Positions 10,243 to 19,045 of a DNA stretch of 64,000 nucleotides are shown here, piece after piece. Where the stretch lies: NCBI RefSeq assembly GCF_033971325.1, contig NZ_CP117180.1, forward strand, positions 1,422,472-1,486,471, given 5' to 3'. Every line of letters begins with the position of its first letter. Position 1 is the stretch's first letter. The stretch is from Hydrogenobacter sp. T-2. Lineage in GTDB: Bacteria > Aquificota > Aquificia > Aquificales > Aquificaceae. The notes beneath the pieces were generated by a model, which saw only the letters and a list, made by a program, of their open reading frames with translations, was not told the origin of the DNA and did no database searches. Made by a program: the position numbers and the translations under genes.

Positions 10243-10941
10243 TTAATCCACCTCAAGGTATCCAAAGCCTTGACCTGTCCTTAGACCAAGCCCATATTGG
10301 TAGACAAACCTCAATATTTCCGGATTGCTCGTTTTTATGCTAAACCTTCCAAGAAAAGCCCTTATATGCCCTCCGTAGTGCTTTATGAATTCTTCCTTGA
10401 AATATTTAAAGCTAAAAGAAAACTCTCCTATCTCTGGCTCGTAGCCCTTTATGACCCTAAAGCGTCTGAGTATGTTCTCAAGAAGAGCATCCTCAAAGCC
10501 TTCTTCCATAGGAATTGGATATCTTACCCTCTGGCTGTCTTGTGAAAATCCTGGCTTTTCCACTACTACAGGAGACAGGCTTTTAAAACTGCCCTTTGAC
10601 CAATCTCCTTCCCTTTCTAACTTAATCTCCTTTATAACAAACTCCGCATCTCCTACCTTGTGGGTTTTACCCTTCAGAGAAGATAACCCATTGTAGAGCC
10701 TTAGCCCATACACTGGGTCTCCTGTGGAGATGCGTAGGTTTATAAACTTTACACCGCTTATGGTTTCTTCCTCAAAGACCACATCCTTTCCAAGGTATAC
10801 CGCAAAGGTGTAGGGTCTTACTGGATTTTCAAGAAACTCCCTAACTCCAAAAACCCTCTTCATCAGGGATATGAGCCTGCGTCTGTAGTCTATGGGTATT
10901 TGCTCTCCCCTTTGACTTTCCATTTTTACTAAAAAACGCAT
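10243..10941 (-). CDS. cas6: CRISPR-associated endoribonuclease Cas6
   Basis: A 232-aa Cas6-like RAMP protein that would cut pre-crRNA within repeats. The C-terminus has the diagnostic glycine-rich loop GLRTGQGFGYLEV; the N-terminus has the ferredoxin-fold start MRFLVKMESQRGEQIPIDY. The frame is open and full length, so it looks functional. It is divergent from a wrecked cas7 at 11021, and no other intact cas gene or array is in the window. It may serve arrays elsewhere in the genome or be a survivor of a dying locus. Confidence 0.82.
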   Translation of the reverse strand: MRFLVKMESQRGEQIPIDYRRRLISLMKRVFGVREFLENPVRPYTFAVYLGKDVVFEEETISGVKFINLRISTGDPVYGLRLYNGLSSLKGKTHKVGDAEFVIKEIKLEREGDWSKGSFKSLSPVVVEKPGFSQDSQRVRYPIPMEEGFEDALLENILRRFRVIKGYEPEIGEFSFSFKYFKEEFIKHYGGHIRAFLGRFSIKTSNPEILRFVYQYGLGLRTGQGFGYLEVD

Positions 10942-11020
10942 AGAGAAAATTTTAAACTGTCAGAAACTGCAAAAAGTGTCTGTTAATATAAGTAAGTAGA
11001 ACAACTAAGGGAGGTCAAAA

Positions 11021-11630
11021 ATGGCTGGATTAACCCTTACGGTAATAACCCACAGGGCAAGCTCTATCAACTACGGAGAGAGTATAGGTAACGTGTCTGT
11101 GCTTAAGAAGGCTACTCTTGCAGATAACACATAGCTAACCTATGCATCTGACAAAGCCCGAAAGTATGGGATAAGAAGGCATGAAAAGGTTTGGGTGGAA
11201 GCTTTTGGATGAGAAGCTAAAGGAGTATATTGCAAAACACTCCTCTAAGGATACTCTTGATGAGGATAAATTTGACGAGGACCTGATAAAAGACTAAGAG
11301 GAGTCTGACCTTTTTGGCGGACTTTTTACAAAGCCTAAGGATAAAGTTAGTAGGAATAATCCGCTGAGTTCGTTGGATGCTGATGCGGTAATAAGTGTAG
11401 TCAAGTTAAGTTACGCTTTTTCCATAAGTCCCTTTAAATCTGATATGGATTTTATAGATATCTAAAACACCTCTATGGAAAAATTGAAAGGGAGCTTGCT
11501 ATAGTAAACTCCGAACAGCACACCTCACATTACATTTACATCCTTACCTTAGACCTTACAATATTGCACTCAACCTTGCAGGACCTGGCACTTCTGGCAA
11601 ACCACCTTCACTTGGGAGGGGTGCCCATTT
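11021..11630 (+). pseudogene. Degraded cas7 (type I-B Cst2/DevR-like)
   Basis: Starts after a strong SD (GGGAGGTC) with ATG 11021 and reads MAGLTLTVITHRASSINYG..., then ESIGNVSVLKK and TYASDKARKYGIRRH after an in-frame TAG. Further stretches in shifted frames give KDTLDEDKFDEDLIKD, EESDLFGGLFTKPKD, AFSISPFKSDMDF and ELAIVNSEQHTSHY. These resemble successive parts of type I-B Cas7. At least three in-frame stops and two or more frame changes are present, and the C-terminal part is lost. No intact protein can be made. Confidence 0.8.
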
Positions 11631-11677
11631 GACAAAAGGCTTGATATGTCTTATTATTCTTTATGTGGCAAGTTGAG

Positions 11678-11706
11678 GTTGCTAATCCACCGTGTGAAGT
11701 TGAAAC
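11678..11706 (+). CRISPR. Solitary CRISPR-like repeat (remnant)
   Basis: 29 bases beginning GTTGCTAATCC and ending GTGTGAAGTTGAAAC. From memory this closely resembles Aquificales CRISPR repeats, which start GTTCCTAATG and end GTGTGGAGTTGAAAC. Only one copy is present, directly after the broken cas7. It is best read as the last trace of a lost array. Confidence 0.6.
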
Positions 11707-11712
11707 CCTAGA

Positions 11713-11739
11713 TTGAAAATATAGAGCTTAGGCTATAAT
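11713..11739 (+). promoter_or_regulatory. Promoter of the MoeB/ThiF gene
   Basis: TTGAAA at 11713-11718 and TATAAT at 11734-11739, a 15-base spacer, with the ATG only nine bases after the -10. The 5' leader would be a few bases at most. Confidence 0.5.
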
Positions 11740-11748
11740 TTATTAGCC

Positions 11749-12564
11749 ATGTTCCAGTTTACGGAAGAGCAGATAAAGAGGTATGCAAGGCATATTATCC
11801 TGCCGGAGGTTGGTGGCAAGGGGCAGGAAAAACTTCTCAAGTCAAAGGTGCTTGTTGTAGGTGCTGGTGGGCTTGGTTCTCCTGCCATATACTACCTTGC
11901 TGCTGCTGGTGTAGGCACGATTGGCATAGTGGACTTTGACGTGGTGGACTATTCTAATCTTCAAAGACAGATACTCCACAACACAGAAAGGGTAGGCGTT
12001 CCTAAGGTAGAGTCCGCACGCATGACGGTGGAAAAGCTAAACCCAGACGTGAAGGTAATAACCTACAACACTATGATAAATAAGTCCAACATTATGGATA
12101 TCATAAAGGACTACGATGTGGTGCTTGATGGGACTGATAACTTCCCTACGAGGTTTCTCATTAACGATGCTTGCTACTTTCTTGGAAAGCCTCTTGTTTC
12201 CGCGGCAATGTTGAGGTTTGAGGGTCAGATATCTGTTTTTGACTACAGAGACAAGGAAAACTCGCCCTGCTATAGATGTTTGTATCCAGAACCACCACCA
12301 CCGGGGCTTGTGCCTTCTTGCCAAGAGGCAGGAATATTGGGGTCCATAGGTGGTATAATGGGCTGTATTCAGGCAACAGAAGCTATAAAGGTTCTCTTAG
12401 GTATAGGTGAACCTTTGGTGGGTAAGCTTCTCATAATGGATGCTTTGTCTATGGACTTTAGAAAGGTAAAGCTCCGCAAGGACCCCGGCTGTCCTCTGTG
12501 CGGAAAAGAGCCGAAGATAACCGAGCTTGTAGAATACGAACAAGTTTGCGAGGCGAGGTTTTAG
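11749..12564 (+). CDS. moeB: MoeB/ThiF-family adenylyltransferase
   Basis: E1-like enzyme that adenylates the C-terminal glycine of a ubiquitin-fold sulfur carrier (MoaD or ThiS) for molybdopterin or thiamine synthesis. The 271 aa show the Rossmann motif GAGGLGSPA near residue 38, DFDVVDYSNLQRQ, DGTDNFPTR, and two zinc CxxC pairs (CYRC and CPLC). A candidate conjugation Cys is in PSCQEAG. MoeB and ThiF cannot be separated by eye. A terminator follows, so it is probably independent of the nuclease-helicase cassette. Confidence 0.85.
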   Translation: MFQFTEEQIKRYARHIILPEVGGKGQEKLLKSKVLVVGAGGLGSPAIYYLAAAGVGTIGIVDFDVVDYSNLQRQILHNTERVGVPKVESARMTVEKLNPDVKVITYNTMINKSNIMDIIKDYDVVLDGTDNFPTRFLINDACYFLGKPLVSAAMLRFEGQISVFDYRDKENSPCYRCLYPEPPPPGLVPSCQEAGILGSIGGIMGCIQATEAIKVLLGIGEPLVGKLLIMDALSMDFRKVKLRKDPGCPLCGKEPKITELVEYEQVCEARF

Positions 12565-12583: not shown

Positions 12584-12600
12584 GGCGTTAAGTATTGTAT

Positions 12601-15600
12601 ATGAGAGACTTGACCATTCTTGAGGGTTTTGTCTTTGAGGGGGCTTTTAAGATAGGATTTCTACAAAGGGTAGCACCTGATTATCTCAAAGGTTTTAAAA
12701 GAATTTTCTTTGACCTTTTGAAAACCGAAGGGTTAAAGGAAGAGCTTATAGAGGAGCTTCAAAAGCCTATAGAGGAGTGGGGCAATATTGGCACAACTAT
12801 AACACCTGAAAGTGCGGAGAGGGTATATACACTTACCACTTACTTGCTTGGATATTATGGTGGTCTTTTGTATGCGGAAGATGGCAAAAACATACATCTT
12901 GAGAAGTTTGAAATGGGTGAAGAGTCCTCAGAGATTGTTTGGAAAAACGCAGACCTTGTCTACACAAAAGGTAAGACTTTATACATAGTGGACTTTAAGC
13001 TCTCTGGACTTCTCTCCTGGCTAAAGGAAGTCTTTGATAGGGGAAGAAGTGAAGACTTTAGAGACTTGCCAAGACTTCCGGTGGTTAACCCCGGAGTGCC
13101 AGTTAACATTTCCTTGGGAGAGTTGGACTTTTCTAAGTTTGTTAAAAACTTCCTATCTCTTAAACAAACGCTTATGGACCTAAAAGATGTCTTTGTGGAA
13201 ATAAAGGGCTTTTCTCAGTTGATTTGTTATGCGGTGGACTATCTTACGGAAAAGGGAAATCAGGGACTAAGGGAGCTATGCCTTGAGCTGTTGTATCCTG
13301 CTGCGGAGTCCTATAGGATAAGGTTTGTGCTTTCTAAAGATGTATCTGAGCTTTCCAAATATAGTGAGGAAGTAAAGGAGATATACAAGAGTTTAAAAAG
13401 CAAGGAATGGGCTTATAGTGAGATTGACGAAACTGTAGAAAAGAGGGCAGGAAAGAGAAGAAGGTTAGAAGAGAAACTAAAGGAAGAAATACAAGGGTAT
13501 CTACAAGAGATAAAGCAAAGAGAGAATAGCCCTGTTGTTGTAAACACAAATCCTATACAAGAAGCAAGGAGAGATGTTAAGGAAAAATTGGAAAAATTCC
13601 TCTCCTCTCAAGGAGACTGCAAAGCTATTGCACTACTTCATTCCGCAGGTAGTGGAAAAACTTCTACTTTGAGAAACCTCATACTTAACTCTCAAGGAAA
13701 ACACATTGTGCTATACATGGCAACGAGGGTAAGCCTTGTAGAAAAGGAAAAGTATAGTGTGGAAAACAGCGGAAAACCTGTAAAGGTTATATACGAAAGA
13801 AAAAAAGCACAAGAAGGTAAATTTGTAAGACATATAGGTGAGGGCTTTACGGATGTGGAAGATAGAGAGGGTATAATCAGGAGAATTGTGGACAGGGTCT
13901 TGGAGGCAGTAAGAGAAAACCATTCACAGATATGGGGCTTTGCAACTATACAGGCTATTGTGGAAACACCCAATAAGAATACCGCAAAGTACCTTGACAA
14001 ACTCTTAAGGTCAGGCATACATACCAAAAATTACCACATCCATATTATTCTTGACGAGTTTTTGGGCTACAGAAACGGTCTTGATGCGGTGCATAGAATG
14101 TTTGAATTTCTTTCAAAGGTGAAGAAAATGGGAGGGAAGGCTTATTTGTATCTTTTTGATGCCAATGGATACTCTCCAGAGCTTTTGGAAAGGCTTATGC
14201 ATGAGTTTAAGTCTTATGGGGTTGTCCCAGATTCTCTTATCCTTTGTGATTATAAACCCTCTTTGCAAGTTCAATATGATGGGATTCCCTTTGAGATATA
14301 TGCTAAGCACGGATACCCTGCAAAGGGTCTATACATACACAAGAAGTTTATACTTGACGTAGAACAAAGGGAACAAGAAGAGCTAATAGAACTTATAGGG
14401 GACCACGTTATCCAAAACCTGCAAAAGGAAAGCACTGCCTTCTTGTATGTGCAAGACAAGGAGATGATAGCAAAACTTTCTAACTACTTTAACACCAGAG
14501 GTGTTTCTAACCTCTACATAACCGCAAGTTCCAGAAAAAGTCAAAAGGATATAAACGAGGGAAGCCAGGATGTTATTATGGGCACTTCTGCAGTTTCAAG
14601 GGGTCTTGATTTTAGCAGACCGCACAAACCTGTGGAAAAAATCTTTATAGTCATAACAGACTGGGGTATTGAACAAAACCTTGTTGAAGTTATACAAGCT
14701 ATTTCAAGGGCAAGGGGTGATGAAATCACAGAACAAAAACCCAGGCATATTCATCTTATTCATGTAATTCAAAAGGAAAATCCATACACTGTTGAAAAGA
14801 TAACCCAGCTTGTGGAATATCAGGACAAAGACTTGGTAAGTCTTTTTTACAGAAGAGAACAGTTAAAACAGAAACTATTGCTTGATTCGGTGGTCCAAAG
14901 GATTATAGAGGACTTTCTTAGAACTCCAGAAAGGTATGTTATAGTGCCTATTCCTGCACAGCATATCACTATTTATAAACCGCATCGCTTTTCTGAGCTT
15001 GAAAATATAATAAAGTTTCTTGAAGATGTCTACATGATGGAATCAAAAGACCAGGAGGTATCAAAGTATATACGTTTGCTGGCAAAAGAGATTCTATCCG
15101 GCATGTTTATGTATACAAATGATGTGCCAAGAAAACTTGAAAACGTGGAATATTATCATCCATACATACTTATAAGAGGCAGATTGCATATGGGCTTTGA
15201 TAATGAAAAGAGAAAGAAGGCAAAGTTTTATTTAGAAAAGGTCAAATCTAAACTTATGGAGCATAACGAAGAAAGAACAAGAGAAATAGAAGAATTTCTA
15301 AACGTTATTGCACCTAAGGAGGTATACGAGACCATCTTTCTTATACCAGTTTACTCTTGGGTCTTTACACAGTATGTTTTGGGCGAACCAAAGGACGAGT
15401 ATCTTAGGTTTAATATCTCAAGCAGGGTGGGCAGAGGTGGTGCGGTGGTGCTTGGTGCAAGCATGGACATAACCACAAGCTGTAAGAACATCCAAGGGCA
15501 AAAGGAATATGCAGTTATTCCTCTTGGAGAGGATTATCCTTACAGAGAGGTTTTAAGTGGACGCTTTGCCAAGTTTCCTATAGAATTTATTTACAAGCTT

Positions 15601-15615
15601 CTTGTGGAGGGGTAA
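12601..15615 (+). CDS. Fusion of RecB-like nuclease and SF2 helicase, candidate defence protein
   Basis: About 1004 aa, not a family I recognise as a whole. The N-terminal third has PD-(D/E)XK features of RecB/Cas4-type nucleases: Asp118 in ADLVY, Asp131-Phe-Lys133 (IVDFK) and Gln206-Tyr210 in SQLICY. No Fe-S cysteine cluster is seen. An SF2-like helicase follows: Walker A AGSGKT near residue 349-354, ATRVSLVEKEK as motif Ia, DEFL at 485, GTSAVSRGLDF at 661 and QAISRARGD at 699. The last 200 residues are unassigned. ATG 12601 is preferred over TTG 12595. It forms a tight operon with the next gene, three bases away. Confidence 0.7.
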   Translation: MRDLTILEGFVFEGAFKIGFLQRVAPDYLKGFKRIFFDLLKTEGLKEELIEELQKPIEEWGNIGTTITPESAERVYTLTTYLLGYYGGLLYAEDGKNIHLEKFEMGEESSEIVWKNADLVYTKGKTLYIVDFKLSGLLSWLKEVFDRGRSEDFRDLPRLPVVNPGVPVNISLGELDFSKFVKNFLSLKQTLMDLKDVFVEIKGFSQLICYAVDYLTEKGNQGLRELCLELLYPAAESYRIRFVLSKDVSELSKYSEEVKEIYKSLKSKEWAYSEIDETVEKRAGKRRRLEEKLKEEIQGYLQEIKQRENSPVVVNTNPIQEARRDVKEKLEKFLSSQGDCKAIALLHSAGSGKTSTLRNLILNSQGKHIVLYMATRVSLVEKEKYSVENSGKPVKVIYERKKAQEGKFVRHIGEGFTDVEDREGIIRRIVDRVLEAVRENHSQIWGFATIQAIVETPNKNTAKYLDKLLRSGIHTKNYHIHIILDEFLGYRNGLDAVHRMFEFLSKVKKMGGKAYLYLFDANGYSPELLERLMHEFKSYGVVPDSLILCDYKPSLQVQYDGIPFEIYAKHGYPAKGLYIHKKFILDVEQREQEELIELIGDHVIQNLQKESTAFLYVQDKEMIAKLSNYFNTRGVSNLYITASSRKSQKDINEGSQDVIMGTSAVSRGLDFSRPHKPVEKIFIVITDWGIEQNLVEVIQAISRARGDEITEQKPRHIHLIHVIQKENPYTVEKITQLVEYQDKDLVSLFYRREQLKQKLLLDSVVQRIIEDFLRTPERYVIVPIPAQHITIYKPHRFSELENIIKFLEDVYMMESKDQEVSKYIRLLAKEILSGMFMYTNDVPRKLENVEYYHPYILIRGRLHMGFDNEKRKKAKFYLEKVKSKLMEHNEERTREIEEFLNVIAPKEVYETIFLIPVYSWVFTQYVLGEPKDEYLRFNISSRVGRGGAVVLGASMDITTSCKNIQGQKEYAVIPLGEDYPYREVLSGRFAKFPIEFIYKLLVEG

Positions 15616-15618
15616 TCT

Positions 15619-17922
15619 ATGGAAAAGGAGTTGCCTGCAAGACAGTGGGATGATAGGATGGATGCCTTTTCTAAGGGTGAGCCTTTTAGCAGAAACTTTG
15701 TTTGTGCTGGACTTTTCCACAATAGAAACTCACAATACTTAGACAATATGGCAAAGATAGCAAAGAAGTTTATAGATAAGCAGAGTGTGGATGCAGAACT
15801 CAAGAAGTTTTTAGAAAATCTAAACTACATGGTCTCTGGAAATGCCATATATAGTAGGCAGGCGGTCAATAGATGGGTAAGCCTATTTAAGGTTATGAAG
15901 TCAGAGCAAAAGGTAGGTTTTTATAGGAAGGATGAAAATGAAAGGTTTAATGTTGCAGAGCTGGACTTGGGAAACCCCTCTGATATTCAACACTATGCGG
16001 GTATTATCTTTTTGAGGATAAGAGGGCACGAAGACGAAGAGCTTTCTGAGGAGCTAAAGTATGACCTAAGGCAGGAACTTTTAGAAGACCTGCTTGAGGT
16101 AGCAGAAGACCAATGGGTAAGAGAGTATCTTGAAAGGGTCAAGGAAATCTTAGAGGACATTAAGCTTGGAGTGTATGGTTCACACTATCGCTTTCCCTTC
16201 TCTACTTTAGCTTACTACCTTTTCCCTGTAAACTTTGACCGTTTTGAGAACGTTATACTCGTTTCAAGCGTTAGTATGTATAGCAGGAGACCAGATACCA
16301 AGCAAAATCTCTGGCAGGAGCTACAAAAAGCCAAAGACTTTGAAGACTTAAAAGGACACTTGGAGAGCACAGGTAAGAGCCTGAAGGACTTGGAGGAGCT
16401 TTTAGACCAAGCTTTTAAAGAGGAGAATCTCACCAAGCTTCGCAAGGAGTGGCTAAGGTTTATTAAAAAGGTGCTAAGTGGAGGAATAAAAAATAAAAAA
16501 CTTGTGGGTGCTTTCCTTAAGAAAAGGGATACAGGCAAGAAAACTTCCGTAAGCTACGGTTATTACCAAGTGCCAGCAAGGAACTTGGAGCTTTTTATAC
16601 TTTACGAGGATGGAATAGACAACAGGCAGATAGAAGCCTTAAAGAACAGATTGGCTAAATTTAGATATGCTGGAGATGTGAAGATTAGTGTGAAGGATGT
16701 GAGACCTATACACAAACTTTTTGGAGGAAAGGAGTATTTTGAGATTTTAAAGGGTTTGGAAAACAACTCAAGAGAGCTAAAACACGAGGAATCTTTGAAA
16801 CTTCTCCATGCCCTTATGTATTTTACCGCAAGATTGAACGGATTTTTGAGACTTAGTTTGGAGCAAAAGGAAAATGTCTCAGGAGCACTTTTGCTTTTGA
16901 ATACAGACCTTGAAAGGGACCAGAGGTATGACTTTTGGGATAGTATAAGTTCTCTGTATGATTACTATGGCTTGCCCTTCCAGACTGCAACAAAACGTTT
17001 TCTTTCCACGATTAAAAGCGATGCGGTGATTAAAAATATGCTTATAAGCCTCTATAAGGACTCCAAGATACTACACTTTAACTTTGATGGCTTTAAACTT
17101 CCAGAAGAAGTTGTAGTCTACGTTATACTTGAAAAGCCATCGCCACGCTTCTTCTATGAGAAAGGTGAAATGTCCTTAGTTTCTGCAAGTAGACACTACA
17201 TGTATGAGGTTTACACTATTGAAACAAAAGGTAATACCGCAAGCATCGGGCTTGAGGATAAGTTCTTTGTGATGTGTGATTATTTTGGAGAAGATGTGGA
17301 TAGATTGAGGGAATACATAAGGCAGAGGATGGAAGACAAAAGGAACAGGTTCTGTTTTATTAGTGCGTTAAAGGACGGATATGCAAAGGTCCTCTATGAG
17401 GATATGTGTAGCTACAGTGATTTTGAAAGAAAAGCCCTTTTCGTGAGATACAAGGAACTAAAGACCGCATATGTTTCTCAAAAGGCGGACAATGACTGTC
17501 TTGTTATATACACCCAACAGTTTAATGAACTTGCAAAGAGCTTGGGTATTAGGCTTGAAGAAGACGCAGCAGCCATAGCCATAAAACCTGCAAGACCTTC
17601 AAAGGAATTTGAAGACATACATCATCCTGCCCTGCAGGTCTTTTATACAGAGAAGATAGGATGGTCTTCTGATGAGGTTTACTCTCAACAGCACAATCTT
17701 TTCCTCTTCACCCTTATAGCCCTTTCCATGTATGAGAGTGAAGCCTTTCAAGTGGCTTATAGCAAACTAAGCCTATACTCAAAGGAAAGGAATGTTTACT
17801 TGACTATAAATCGTCAAGCCAATGATGGAGTTAAAAGTTCCTACGTGTTTCCTCTAAGAACTATCTTGTATGAACTGGTAGAGTTTTTCAGACATCTCCC
17901 TGGTGATAAGGAAGTGAGTTAA
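15619..17922 (+). CDS. Unrecognised 767-aa protein, partner of the nuclease-helicase
   Basis: I do not recognise this protein. It is soluble-looking, charged and mixed alpha/beta, with a helical charged stretch around residues 140-190 and another around 235-300 (LKDLEELLDQAFKEENL). No Walker, PD-(D/E)XK, methylase or HD motif is evident. The C-terminal part (about 490-767) alternates strands and helices; a distant RNase H/PIWI-like fold is possible but no catalytic tetrad could be assigned. GGAGGGG, overlapping the previous gene's end, is the SD. It starts three bases after the nuclease-helicase stop, so the two are almost certainly co-expressed. Confidence 0.6.
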   Translation: MEKELPARQWDDRMDAFSKGEPFSRNFVCAGLFHNRNSQYLDNMAKIAKKFIDKQSVDAELKKFLENLNYMVSGNAIYSRQAVNRWVSLFKVMKSEQKVGFYRKDENERFNVAELDLGNPSDIQHYAGIIFLRIRGHEDEELSEELKYDLRQELLEDLLEVAEDQWVREYLERVKEILEDIKLGVYGSHYRFPFSTLAYYLFPVNFDRFENVILVSSVSMYSRRPDTKQNLWQELQKAKDFEDLKGHLESTGKSLKDLEELLDQAFKEENLTKLRKEWLRFIKKVLSGGIKNKKLVGAFLKKRDTGKKTSVSYGYYQVPARNLELFILYEDGIDNRQIEALKNRLAKFRYAGDVKISVKDVRPIHKLFGGKEYFEILKGLENNSRELKHEESLKLLHALMYFTARLNGFLRLSLEQKENVSGALLLLNTDLERDQRYDFWDSISSLYDYYGLPFQTATKRFLSTIKSDAVIKNMLISLYKDSKILHFNFDGFKLPEEVVVYVILEKPSPRFFYEKGEMSLVSASRHYMYEVYTIETKGNTASIGLEDKFFVMCDYFGEDVDRLREYIRQRMEDKRNRFCFISALKDGYAKVLYEDMCSYSDFERKALFVRYKELKTAYVSQKADNDCLVIYTQQFNELAKSLGIRLEEDAAAIAIKPARPSKEFEDIHHPALQVFYTEKIGWSSDEVYSQQHNLFLFTLIALSMYESEAFQVAYSKLSLYSKERNVYLTINRQANDGVKSSYVFPLRTILYELVEFFRHLPGDKEVS

Positions 17923-17935
17923 AATATATATTCCT

Positions 17936-18262
17936 ATGGAGCTTATAGGCATAGAGGACTTTCTCAAATTAGACATAAGGCTTGCGAAGGTGCTTTCTGC
18001 AGAAAGGGTAGAGGGTTCAGAAAAACTTTTAAAGTTGAGGGTTTCTCTTGGAGAAGAGGAAAGAACCCTTATGGCTGGTATAGCAAAGCACTATAGCCCA
18101 GAGGAGTTGGTGGGTAAAAAGGTGCTAATGCTGGCAAACCTAAAGCCAAGAAAAATATTCGGCGTGGAGTCTCAAGGTATGGTGCTGGCACTTTCTGACG
18201 GAGAAAACCTATCTGTGATTGTTCCAGATAGAGATATAAAAGAGGGTGCAAAGGCAAGTTAA
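17936..18262 (+). CDS. metG: Methionyl-tRNA synthetase beta subunit (tRNA-binding OB fold)
   Basis: A 108-aa stand-alone EMAP/Arc1p-type OB fold that binds tRNA in trans to the catalytic MetRS subunit. The family run is clear: FLKLDIRLAKVLSAERVEGS, LMAGIAKHYSPEEL and VGKKVLMLANLKPRKIFGVE. Most bacteria have this as the C-terminal domain of MetG; in Aquifex it is a separate beta subunit. It ends three bases before the ParB-domain gene. CsaA-like use is possible but less likely in this group. Confidence 0.82.
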   Translation: MELIGIEDFLKLDIRLAKVLSAERVEGSEKLLKLRVSLGEEERTLMAGIAKHYSPEELVGKKVLMLANLKPRKIFGVESQGMVLALSDGENLSVIVPDRDIKEGAKAS

Positions 18263-18265
18263 GGC

Positions 18266-19045
18266 ATGAGGTTTATAGAGCCTATAAAAGGACTTGAGCT
18301 TGAGTTTGCTATTATACCTGCTGAAAGGATAGTTATACCCTCTATTCAGCGTGAGCTTTCGGATATGCATATAAAGAGGCTGATGGAGTCTATGGAAAAG
18401 GTGGGTTTTGTAGAGCCTATATCAGTAGTTCCTACAGAGGATGGCTATTATGAGGTTATAAACGGACAACATAGGGTTGAGGCTGGTAGACAGCTTGGCA
18501 TGAAGGAGTTCCCAGCCATAATACTGCCACCTTCTGCAAAAGACTACATAATAGCCTTAAACATAGAGAAAGTCCCTTCCTTAAAGGACAAAGCCCATCA
18601 GGCTTATGAGATATTTATGTCCTATCTCCAAAGGGACGCAAACCTTCCCGAATACCGTTTGGAAAAGTTCATAGAGGATGCTTATCTAATTACTGTAGGC
18701 TTTGTAGTAGACAAATACGGAGACAAGAAATTCCCCGGCTACGCCTTTGAAAAAGTTCTCAAGAAGGTGGATGCCTTTCTGGAAAAGCCTTTGAGTGAAG
18801 CGGAAAAGGAAAGGGAAGAAAGAGCTAAGGTTCTCCTCAATGCAAAAGAGGTTCTAAACAAAAGATACGAAGAGCTTGGACTAAGAAACGCACTCCAAAA
18901 GGAAGCCATAGTATCAAAAGCCTTTCAGAGTGTTTATGGAAAGTATGTGAAAATGCTAAGCGACGACTTTTATCAGGTTTTTGACAAACTTATTCCTGCT
19001 ATAGAAAGCGTTAGCTTTGAAGAGGGAGAGCTTGAAGAATTTTAG
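18266..19045 (+). CDS. ParB/Srx-domain DNA-binding-like protein
   Basis: 259 aa with an N-terminal ParB/sulfiredoxin fold (about residues 15-95): QRELSDMHIKRLMESM, FVEPISVVP and the core ING-QHR box in YYEVINGQHRVEAGRQLG. There is no obvious ParB helix-turn-helix region; the remainder is helical and charged. Chromosomal Spo0J is usually longer and next to parA, which is absent here, so this may be a nuclease- or CTPase-like relative. It is translated immediately after MetRS beta. Confidence 0.7.
   Translation: MRFIEPIKGLELEFAIIPAERIVIPSIQRELSDMHIKRLMESMEKVGFVEPISVVPTEDGYYEVINGQHRVEAGRQLGMKEFPAIILPPSAKDYIIALNIEKVPSLKDKAHQAYEIFMSYLQRDANLPEYRLEKFIEDAYLITVGFVVDKYGDKKFPGYAFEKVLKKVDAFLEKPLSEAEKEREERAKVLLNAKEVLNKRYEELGLRNALQKEAIVSKAFQSVYGKYVKMLSDDFYQVFDKLIPAIESVSFEEGELEEF

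Follow-up and report, generated by a model that had tools for sequence, protein, structure and literature searches.

A two-gene cassette of Hydrogenobacter sp. T-2 joins a probable helicase-nuclease to a predicted Argonaute-fold protein and looks like a differently built relative of DdmDE and ApsAB

The combination of an inactive Argonaute with a helicase-nuclease eliminates plasmids in the two cases studied (PMC12409362, PMC11096173). In DdmDE, the DNA-guided DdmE recruits DdmD, which unwinds and cuts plasmids and which carries its helicase at the N-terminus and its nuclease at the C-terminus (PMC12409362). ApsAB destabilises plasmids and requires the helicase, partly the nuclease, and a MID-like motif of ApsB for doing so (PMC11096173). 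PIWI-RE systems always comprise three genes, among them one for a DinG-type (Fe-S) helicase and one for a separate restriction endonuclease (REase) protein (PMC3702460). Here we describe a gene pair, P1-P2, in a 64,000-nucleotide (nt) stretch of the genome of the hot-spring bacterium Hydrogenobacter sp. T-2 (NZ_CP117180.1, positions 1,422,472 to 1,486,471 of the forward strand), the whole of which we call the window and whose numbering is used throughout. P1-P2 looks like a differently built, apparently unrecorded relative of the Argonaute-guided helicase-nuclease systems of the DdmDE/ApsAB type. The genome (G000) is a single contig of 1.69 Mb, and its nearest named relatives are metagenome genomes of the Aquificaceae. 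The parts of the pair are as follows, in amino acids (aa) where protein positions are given.

12601..15615, forward strand: P1, open reading frame of 1,004 aa with an ATG start.
P1 domains, forward strand: nuclease at about aa 1-245, superfamily 2 (SF2) helicase core at about aa 319-790, C-terminal domain at about 790-1004, placed by motifs and an AlphaFold2 (AF2) model.
12637..13230, forward strand: span of the putative PD-(D/E)XK active site in P1, comprising E13, D118, D131-x-K133, E200 and Q206-x3-Y210.
15619..17922, forward strand: P2, open reading frame of 767 aa with an ATG start.
P2 domains, forward strand: N-terminal region, predicted MID at about aa 385-483 and predicted PIWI at about aa 484-760, placed by the AF2 model and structure search.

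The two genes follow each other on the same strand with a gap of 3 nt. P1 has an alternative TTG start at 12595 (open frame 12595-15615), and its residues are counted here from the ATG at 12601. Against an orthologous pair that is 87% identical, the ratio of nonsynonymous to synonymous substitution rates (dN/dS) is 0.15 for P1 and 0.11 for P2, compared alongside 0.03 for the neighbouring ThiF gene; purifying selection acts on both P1 and P2. A preliminary description of this DNA had reported two adjoining genes with nuclease and helicase motifs, and both the reading frames and the residues were located where it had placed them.

What P2 is could not be told from its sequence: Pfam, NCBIfam, PADLOC, PHROGs and phmmer/hmmsearch comparisons with the PDB found no family, and no PIWI family is among the Pfam matches of 12 P2 members. 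The AF2 model (predicted local distance difference test score, pLDDT, 72.1; predicted template modelling score, pTM, 0.66; alignment of 14 sequences) points to an answer. When it was searched with Foldseek against 350,542 PDB chains, all 37 matches with an expectation value (E) of 0.001 or below were Argonaute/PIWI proteins, the best being the archaeal AfAgo (6tuo, E 2.3e-8) and the range taking in AfAgo, RsAgo, SPARTA, SPARDA, AaAgo and animal PIWI proteins; the next match was an unrelated protein at E 0.026. Superposition in VIA gave Z 10.6 for human Ago2 (root-mean-square deviation, rmsd, 4.6 over 308 aligned residues) and Z 10.5 for an isolated MID domain (rmsd 2.8, 126/134 residues). As modelled, P2 is a member of the Argonaute/PIWI superfamily at the level of the fold, with a MID and a PIWI domain. 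The preliminary description had held that P2 matches no family and that the pair has no likeness to prokaryotic Argonaute (pAgo) systems; neither claim is supported by the prediction, because an Argonaute fold in P2 makes the pair a pAgo-type system in logic.

The details of the predicted domains suggest which functions P2 may have kept. The MID domain of a classical Aquificota pAgo (L104) reads Y-x3-K-x10-Q...N...K, and that of P2 reads W440-x3-[S/N/R]-x10-Q455...N473...K480, with W, Q and N present in 12/12 members, K480 in 11/12 and the Q...N...K spacing nearly that of the classical Aquificota proteins. The slicer positions were set by motif alignment to classical pAgos and not by a solved structure. 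On this basis E505 (12/12) takes the place of D1 and D/E586 that of D3, conservation is lacking at the Glu finger, and S/A715-K716 stands at the last position, so that the DEDX tetrad of slicing pAgos appears to have degenerated in P2. The reading that fits the protein best is a slicer-dead Argonaute which may still anchor a strand end, and its altered 5' pocket could point to an unusual guide end.

P1 was described beforehand as a fusion of a RecB-type nuclease with an SF2 helicase, and this is borne out by its motifs and by the helicase fold. The nuclease motif residues are D118, D131-F-K133 and Q206-x3-Y210, and the helicase motifs are AGSGKT (K353), DEFL (485-488), SRGLDF (666-671) and QAISRARGD (699-707). 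All 15 main-clade P1 homologues, down to 23% identity, keep E13, D118, D131, K133, E200, Q206 and Y210, which is the RecB/Cas4-type signature (E, D, D-x-K, Q-x3-Y in this order), as well as every helicase residue that was checked (K353, D485-E486, R667, Q699, R703 and R705). Because these residues are invariant and both genes are under purifying selection, the motifs are not due to chance. Pfam Helicase_C is found in 16/16 members of the family at E<=1 (best E 9.7e-8); it is sub-threshold in the P1 of the window and exceeds the cut-off in a cyanobacterial relative. In the AF2 model (pLDDT 76, pTM 0.72), the PDB matches listed by Foldseek are helicases or helicase-fold proteins throughout and cover residues ~319-904, and VIA gives an SF2 fold with a best Z of 19.4 (rmsd 3.9, 327 aligned residues). 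P1 as modelled thus has the motifs I, II, V and VI and the tandem RecA fold of an SF2 helicase. Ahead of the helicase, the predicted order of helices and strands fits the alpha-beta-beta-beta-alpha-beta core of PD-(D/E)XK nucleases. PADLOC matches to BrxA, Cas3 and Cas2 (E ~0.002-0.04) are single and weak and were taken as chance.

Among the closest described systems is DdmDE of Vibrio cholerae and Lactobacillus casei, in which one gene encodes a protein with SF2 helicase and PD-(D/E)XK nuclease domains and the other an inactive pAgo that, as P2 does, escapes plain sequence search. As in DdmDE, a helicase-nuclease and an inactive-looking Argonaute stand in one operon in P1-P2. The nuclease motifs of P1, however, span aa 13-210 and precede the helicase, whereas the nuclease of DdmD is C-terminal. 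Neither DdmD nor DdmE chains are among the PDB matches listed for the P1 and P2 profiles or among the top 50 Foldseek matches of P2, which does not exclude kinship. ApsAB of Escherichia coli sequence type 38 (ST38) likewise is a horizontally acquired operon of a helicase/nuclease and an Argonaute-like partner that is invisible to sequence search. In ApsA the helicase motifs are GFGKS, DELH and QAVGRVER, motifs I and II are separated by ~310 aa, and the nuclease (K1435) is C-terminal (PMC11096173), whereas in P1 the motifs are AGSGKT, DEFL and QAISRARG, the corresponding separation is ~130 aa and the nuclease is N-terminal; in place of the Y-x3-K...QG...K of ApsB (PMC11096173), P2 has W-x3-S/N/R...QT...K. 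We do not file P1-P2 under DdmDE or ApsAB because its nuclease is N-terminal and theirs is C-terminal, nor under ApsAB because the motifs and spacing of ApsA differ and the ApsB motif is missing from P2. By analogy, the pair would work like DdmDE and ApsAB rather than be either of them.

Two further groups resemble the pair in part. PIWI-RE also combines a divergent PIWI protein, a helicase and a nuclease of REase fold, but P1-P2 has two genes only, no pPIWI_RE model is among the Pfam matches of P2, and P1 matches no DinG family; gene content and profiles rule this identity out. Classical long pAgos of the AaAgo type, which PF02171 finds in 15/136 Aquificota genomes, share the predicted MID-PIWI fold and the similar Q...N...K spacing, but P2 differs from them in having no catalytic tetrad and in having a helicase-nuclease partner. 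PF02171 matches neither P2 nor any other protein of the window genome.

Taken together, the two components P1 and P2 probably form a module that destroys invading DNA, most likely plasmids and possibly phages, under the direction of the Argonaute. The MID pocket of P2, whose PIWI slicer is degenerate, would take up a short nucleic-acid guide, through which P2 would base-pair with foreign DNA. P2 would then recruit or activate P1, which would load on the opened strand, translocate by its SF2 motor and cut with its N-terminal RecB-type PD-(D/E)XK nuclease. We propose guide direction because the division of labour is the same as in DdmDE and ApsAB, namely an inactive or divergent Argonaute and a helicase-nuclease. 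The analysis itself demonstrates the gene pair, its linkage and mobility, the invariant motor and nuclease residues, and an Argonaute fold as predicted for P2; that P2 binds a guide and forms a complex with P1, how the target would be chosen, that it is cleaved and that the outcome is defence are inferred.

Several results weigh against this reading. The structural basis is one predicted model per protein at modest alignment depth; that of P2 draws on the shallow set of 14 sequences, and parts of its PIWI domain have a pLDDT below 60. In hhalign, P2 does not match 13 classical Aquificota pAgos significantly and stays within the range of shuffled columns. The Y-x3-K of the MID 5'-phosphate motif is replaced in P2 (position 444 is S, N or R), with Q and K kept. 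On the side of P1, the nuclease domain alone has no Pfam nuclease match, and the hhalign comparison of the N-terminus with Aquificota Cas4 is not significant and does not exceed what the best shuffled columns give. The nuclease assignment is therefore a probable one that rests on motifs and predicted topology. The catalytic K133 is gone from distant relatives of P1, and D131 from some of them too, which suggests that the nuclease activity is not essential everywhere in the family.

Conserved linkage of the pair had been set beforehand as a test, and it stood: among 151 relatives searched for the cassette, 24 have P1 or a distant relative and 19 have P2, and P2 directly follows P1 in 19/19 genomes of the main clade. 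In two genomes (G025 and G044) P2 adjoins P1 though it is too divergent for single-sequence search. The pairwise distances of the two proteins correlate closely (Mantel r 0.96). Within the genus, 8/14 genomes have P1. The window cassette sits between two genes that lie outside the system.

11749..12564, forward strand: ThiF/MoeB-type gene (Pfam ThiF), left flank of the insertion site.
17936..18262, forward strand: tRNA_bind gene (Pfam tRNA_bind), right flank of the insertion site.

In three genomes (G013, G004 and G009) this site is empty and the ThiF and tRNA_bind genes are at most 12 bp apart; no target-site duplication is evident at the cassette junctions. Other genomes carry the cassette at many different insertion places. 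In G006 it lies in a defence island (L096:541-9795), where a PLD/SNF2 helicase, a type IIG restriction enzyme, an oligonucleotide-cyclase-like protein, an AriA/AbiL-like ATPase and a small gene precede P1-P2 in this order, and in G009 a P2 remnant stands beside a PLD-helicase similar to that of G006. In G027 the cassette adjoins the type III-A genes Cas10, Csm2, Csm3 and Cas6. A scaffold of Candidatus Caldipriscus (WOR-3; L047:9983-15059, LBFQ01000048.1) has a P1 that is 87% identical to a Thermocrinis copy, together with a P2 that contains Ns and is split into several frames; the likeness reflects either a recent cross-phylum transfer or a binning mix. P1-P2 behaves as a mobile defence cassette, unlike housekeeping repair genes, and linkage, mobility and defence-island setting support as probable the genome-defence role that the preliminary description had raised. 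Two genes past the cassette (window 18266-19045) is a gene for a protein with a ParB_N-like N-terminal domain and a sub-threshold GmrSD_N match, which occurs in the loci of some relatives only.

The pair had also been described as lying beside a decayed locus of clustered regularly interspaced short palindromic repeats (CRISPR). What holds of this is a gap of ~800 nt without a long open reading frame, which follows cas6 and precedes ThiF (window 10243-11745); cas6 itself (10243-10941) is intact. The locus seems to be split in the window genome, where cas4 is at 533 kb and cas6 at 1,433 kb, against ~6 kb between the two in the sister genome G007. In G007, cas6 is 94% identical and lies ~450 kb from the cassette, and in G010 and G011 the cassette is beside the same ThiF gene and cas6 is absent there. 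The adjacency of cas6 in the window is incidental and peculiar to this genome, and a functional tie of P1-P2 to CRISPR was rejected on the same grounds.

More distant relatives were found by tblastn and profile alignment. Cyanobacterial conjugative plasmids carry two-gene operons (1,012 and 1,223 aa) whose P1 relative is matched by the P1 profile over the entire protein (E 1.2e-19), and plasmids of Acinetobacter, Cupriavidus and Acetobacter carry two-gene operons as well, with E ~1e-25 for the two tested with a broad profile. One out-of-phylum chromosome has cyanobacterium-like B and A genes, and such operons also occur in two other Aquificota lineages. Every sequence of the broad P1 alignment keeps D118, E200, Q206 and Y210. 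In all, the P1 family is rare, being present in 11/72,556 plasmids and in 27/391 genomes, one of the 27 being outside Aquificota; no P1-P2 relatives were found in the phages and viral contigs searched. Most of the plasmid-borne relatives have an unannotated neighbour; the partner proteins (754-1,191 aa, with 1,012 aa for a cyanobacterial and 1,191 aa for an Acinetobacter partner) have no library match, and none of those of L149, L152, L154, L156, L091, L092 and L167 matches P2 significantly. The cyanobacterial and proteobacterial partners match one another (E 8e-12), and their C-termini resemble P2 only as judged by eye.

Some Aquificota relatives of P1 are without such a partner. Three from another Aquificota family (L093:7616-11101, L094:7416-10898 and L168:6873-10430; 1,160-1,186 aa) have no Argonaute-like neighbour, and two genomes of the same group (G068 and G072) have a classical pAgo elsewhere. 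Beside the L094 relative (L094:12764-16790) are a 262-aa protein that looks like a DnaQ-like exonuclease and a divergent 1,087-aa protein on the opposite strand. In the Acinetobacter piscicola plasmid NZ_CP048660.1, the fused PD-(D/E)XK lysine of the distant pair (L154) is lost, and an HNH protein (L154:8694-9713; TIGR01865, E 1.5e-8; kin of the Cas9/IscB HNH) directly follows the helicase gene. It is possible that this protein is a replacement nuclease; in a related operon (L155) a different gene follows.

Other ways of working have to be set against an Argonaute-directed module. P2 might sense an unusual nucleic-acid structure such as an R-loop, a stalled fork or a DNA:RNA hybrid without any guide, upon which P1 would degrade the DNA. 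The replacement of the 5'-end Lys in the MID domain (W-x3-S/N/R) would agree with this, as would a proposal that PIWI-RE systems containing helicases sense R-loops (PMC3702460), but the near invariance of Q455, N473 and K480 is hard to account for unless a strand is bound by its end, and we consider an unguided sensor unlikely. The pair could instead be a housekeeping or accessory complex of DNA repair or replication, processing ends as RecBCD or AddAB do with an Argonaute-fold subunit for DNA binding. The fusion of a RecB-type nuclease to a helicase fits such a role, and PF12705 (RecB/AddB-type nuclease) proteins were not detected in the window genome; against it stand the patchy presence within the genus, the empty sites, the remnant in another genome and the many insertion places, as well as the cross-phylum copy and the plasmid-borne relatives, which together make it very improbable.

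Several inactive pAgos (SPARTA, SPARDA) are known to have abortive-infection effectors. With this precedent, guide recognition by P2 might unleash P1 on the host chromosome and kill the cell, the invader not being cured, and the defence-island setting would suit that outcome. A processive helicase-nuclease, however, is suited to destroying its target locally, as DdmDE does, and nothing points to toxicity, so that we give an abortive role just as little weight as a repair complex. Guided destruction of invading DNA by P1-P2 is the reading that we favour.

Tentatively, and with slightly more doubt than conviction, we speculate that Argonaute-guided helicase-nuclease immunity has a third lineage, of which P1-P2 is the founder and which came together separately from DdmDE and ApsAB, with its RecB nuclease at the N-terminus, another kind of SF2 motor and an Argonaute family whose 5'-end pocket is altered. 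This lineage would have a sparse distribution in Aquificota, WOR-3, cyanobacteria and proteobacteria, frequently on plasmids, and would have gone unrecorded as its Argonaute is invisible to profiles; some branches would have given up the nuclease lysine, one Acinetobacter plasmid having a separate Cas9-like HNH protein after the helicase. If this is true, the combination of an inactive Argonaute with a helicase-nuclease arose or diverged on three or more occasions, each in its own domain order, and many anti-plasmid systems have been missed whose Argonautes are not findable by sequence. The pair from Hydrogenobacter would be a heat-stable example, handy for structural work and for tools that unwind and cut double-stranded DNA at high temperature. 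The plasmid-borne copies, finally, would suggest that plasmids themselves use P1-P2 against rival plasmids.

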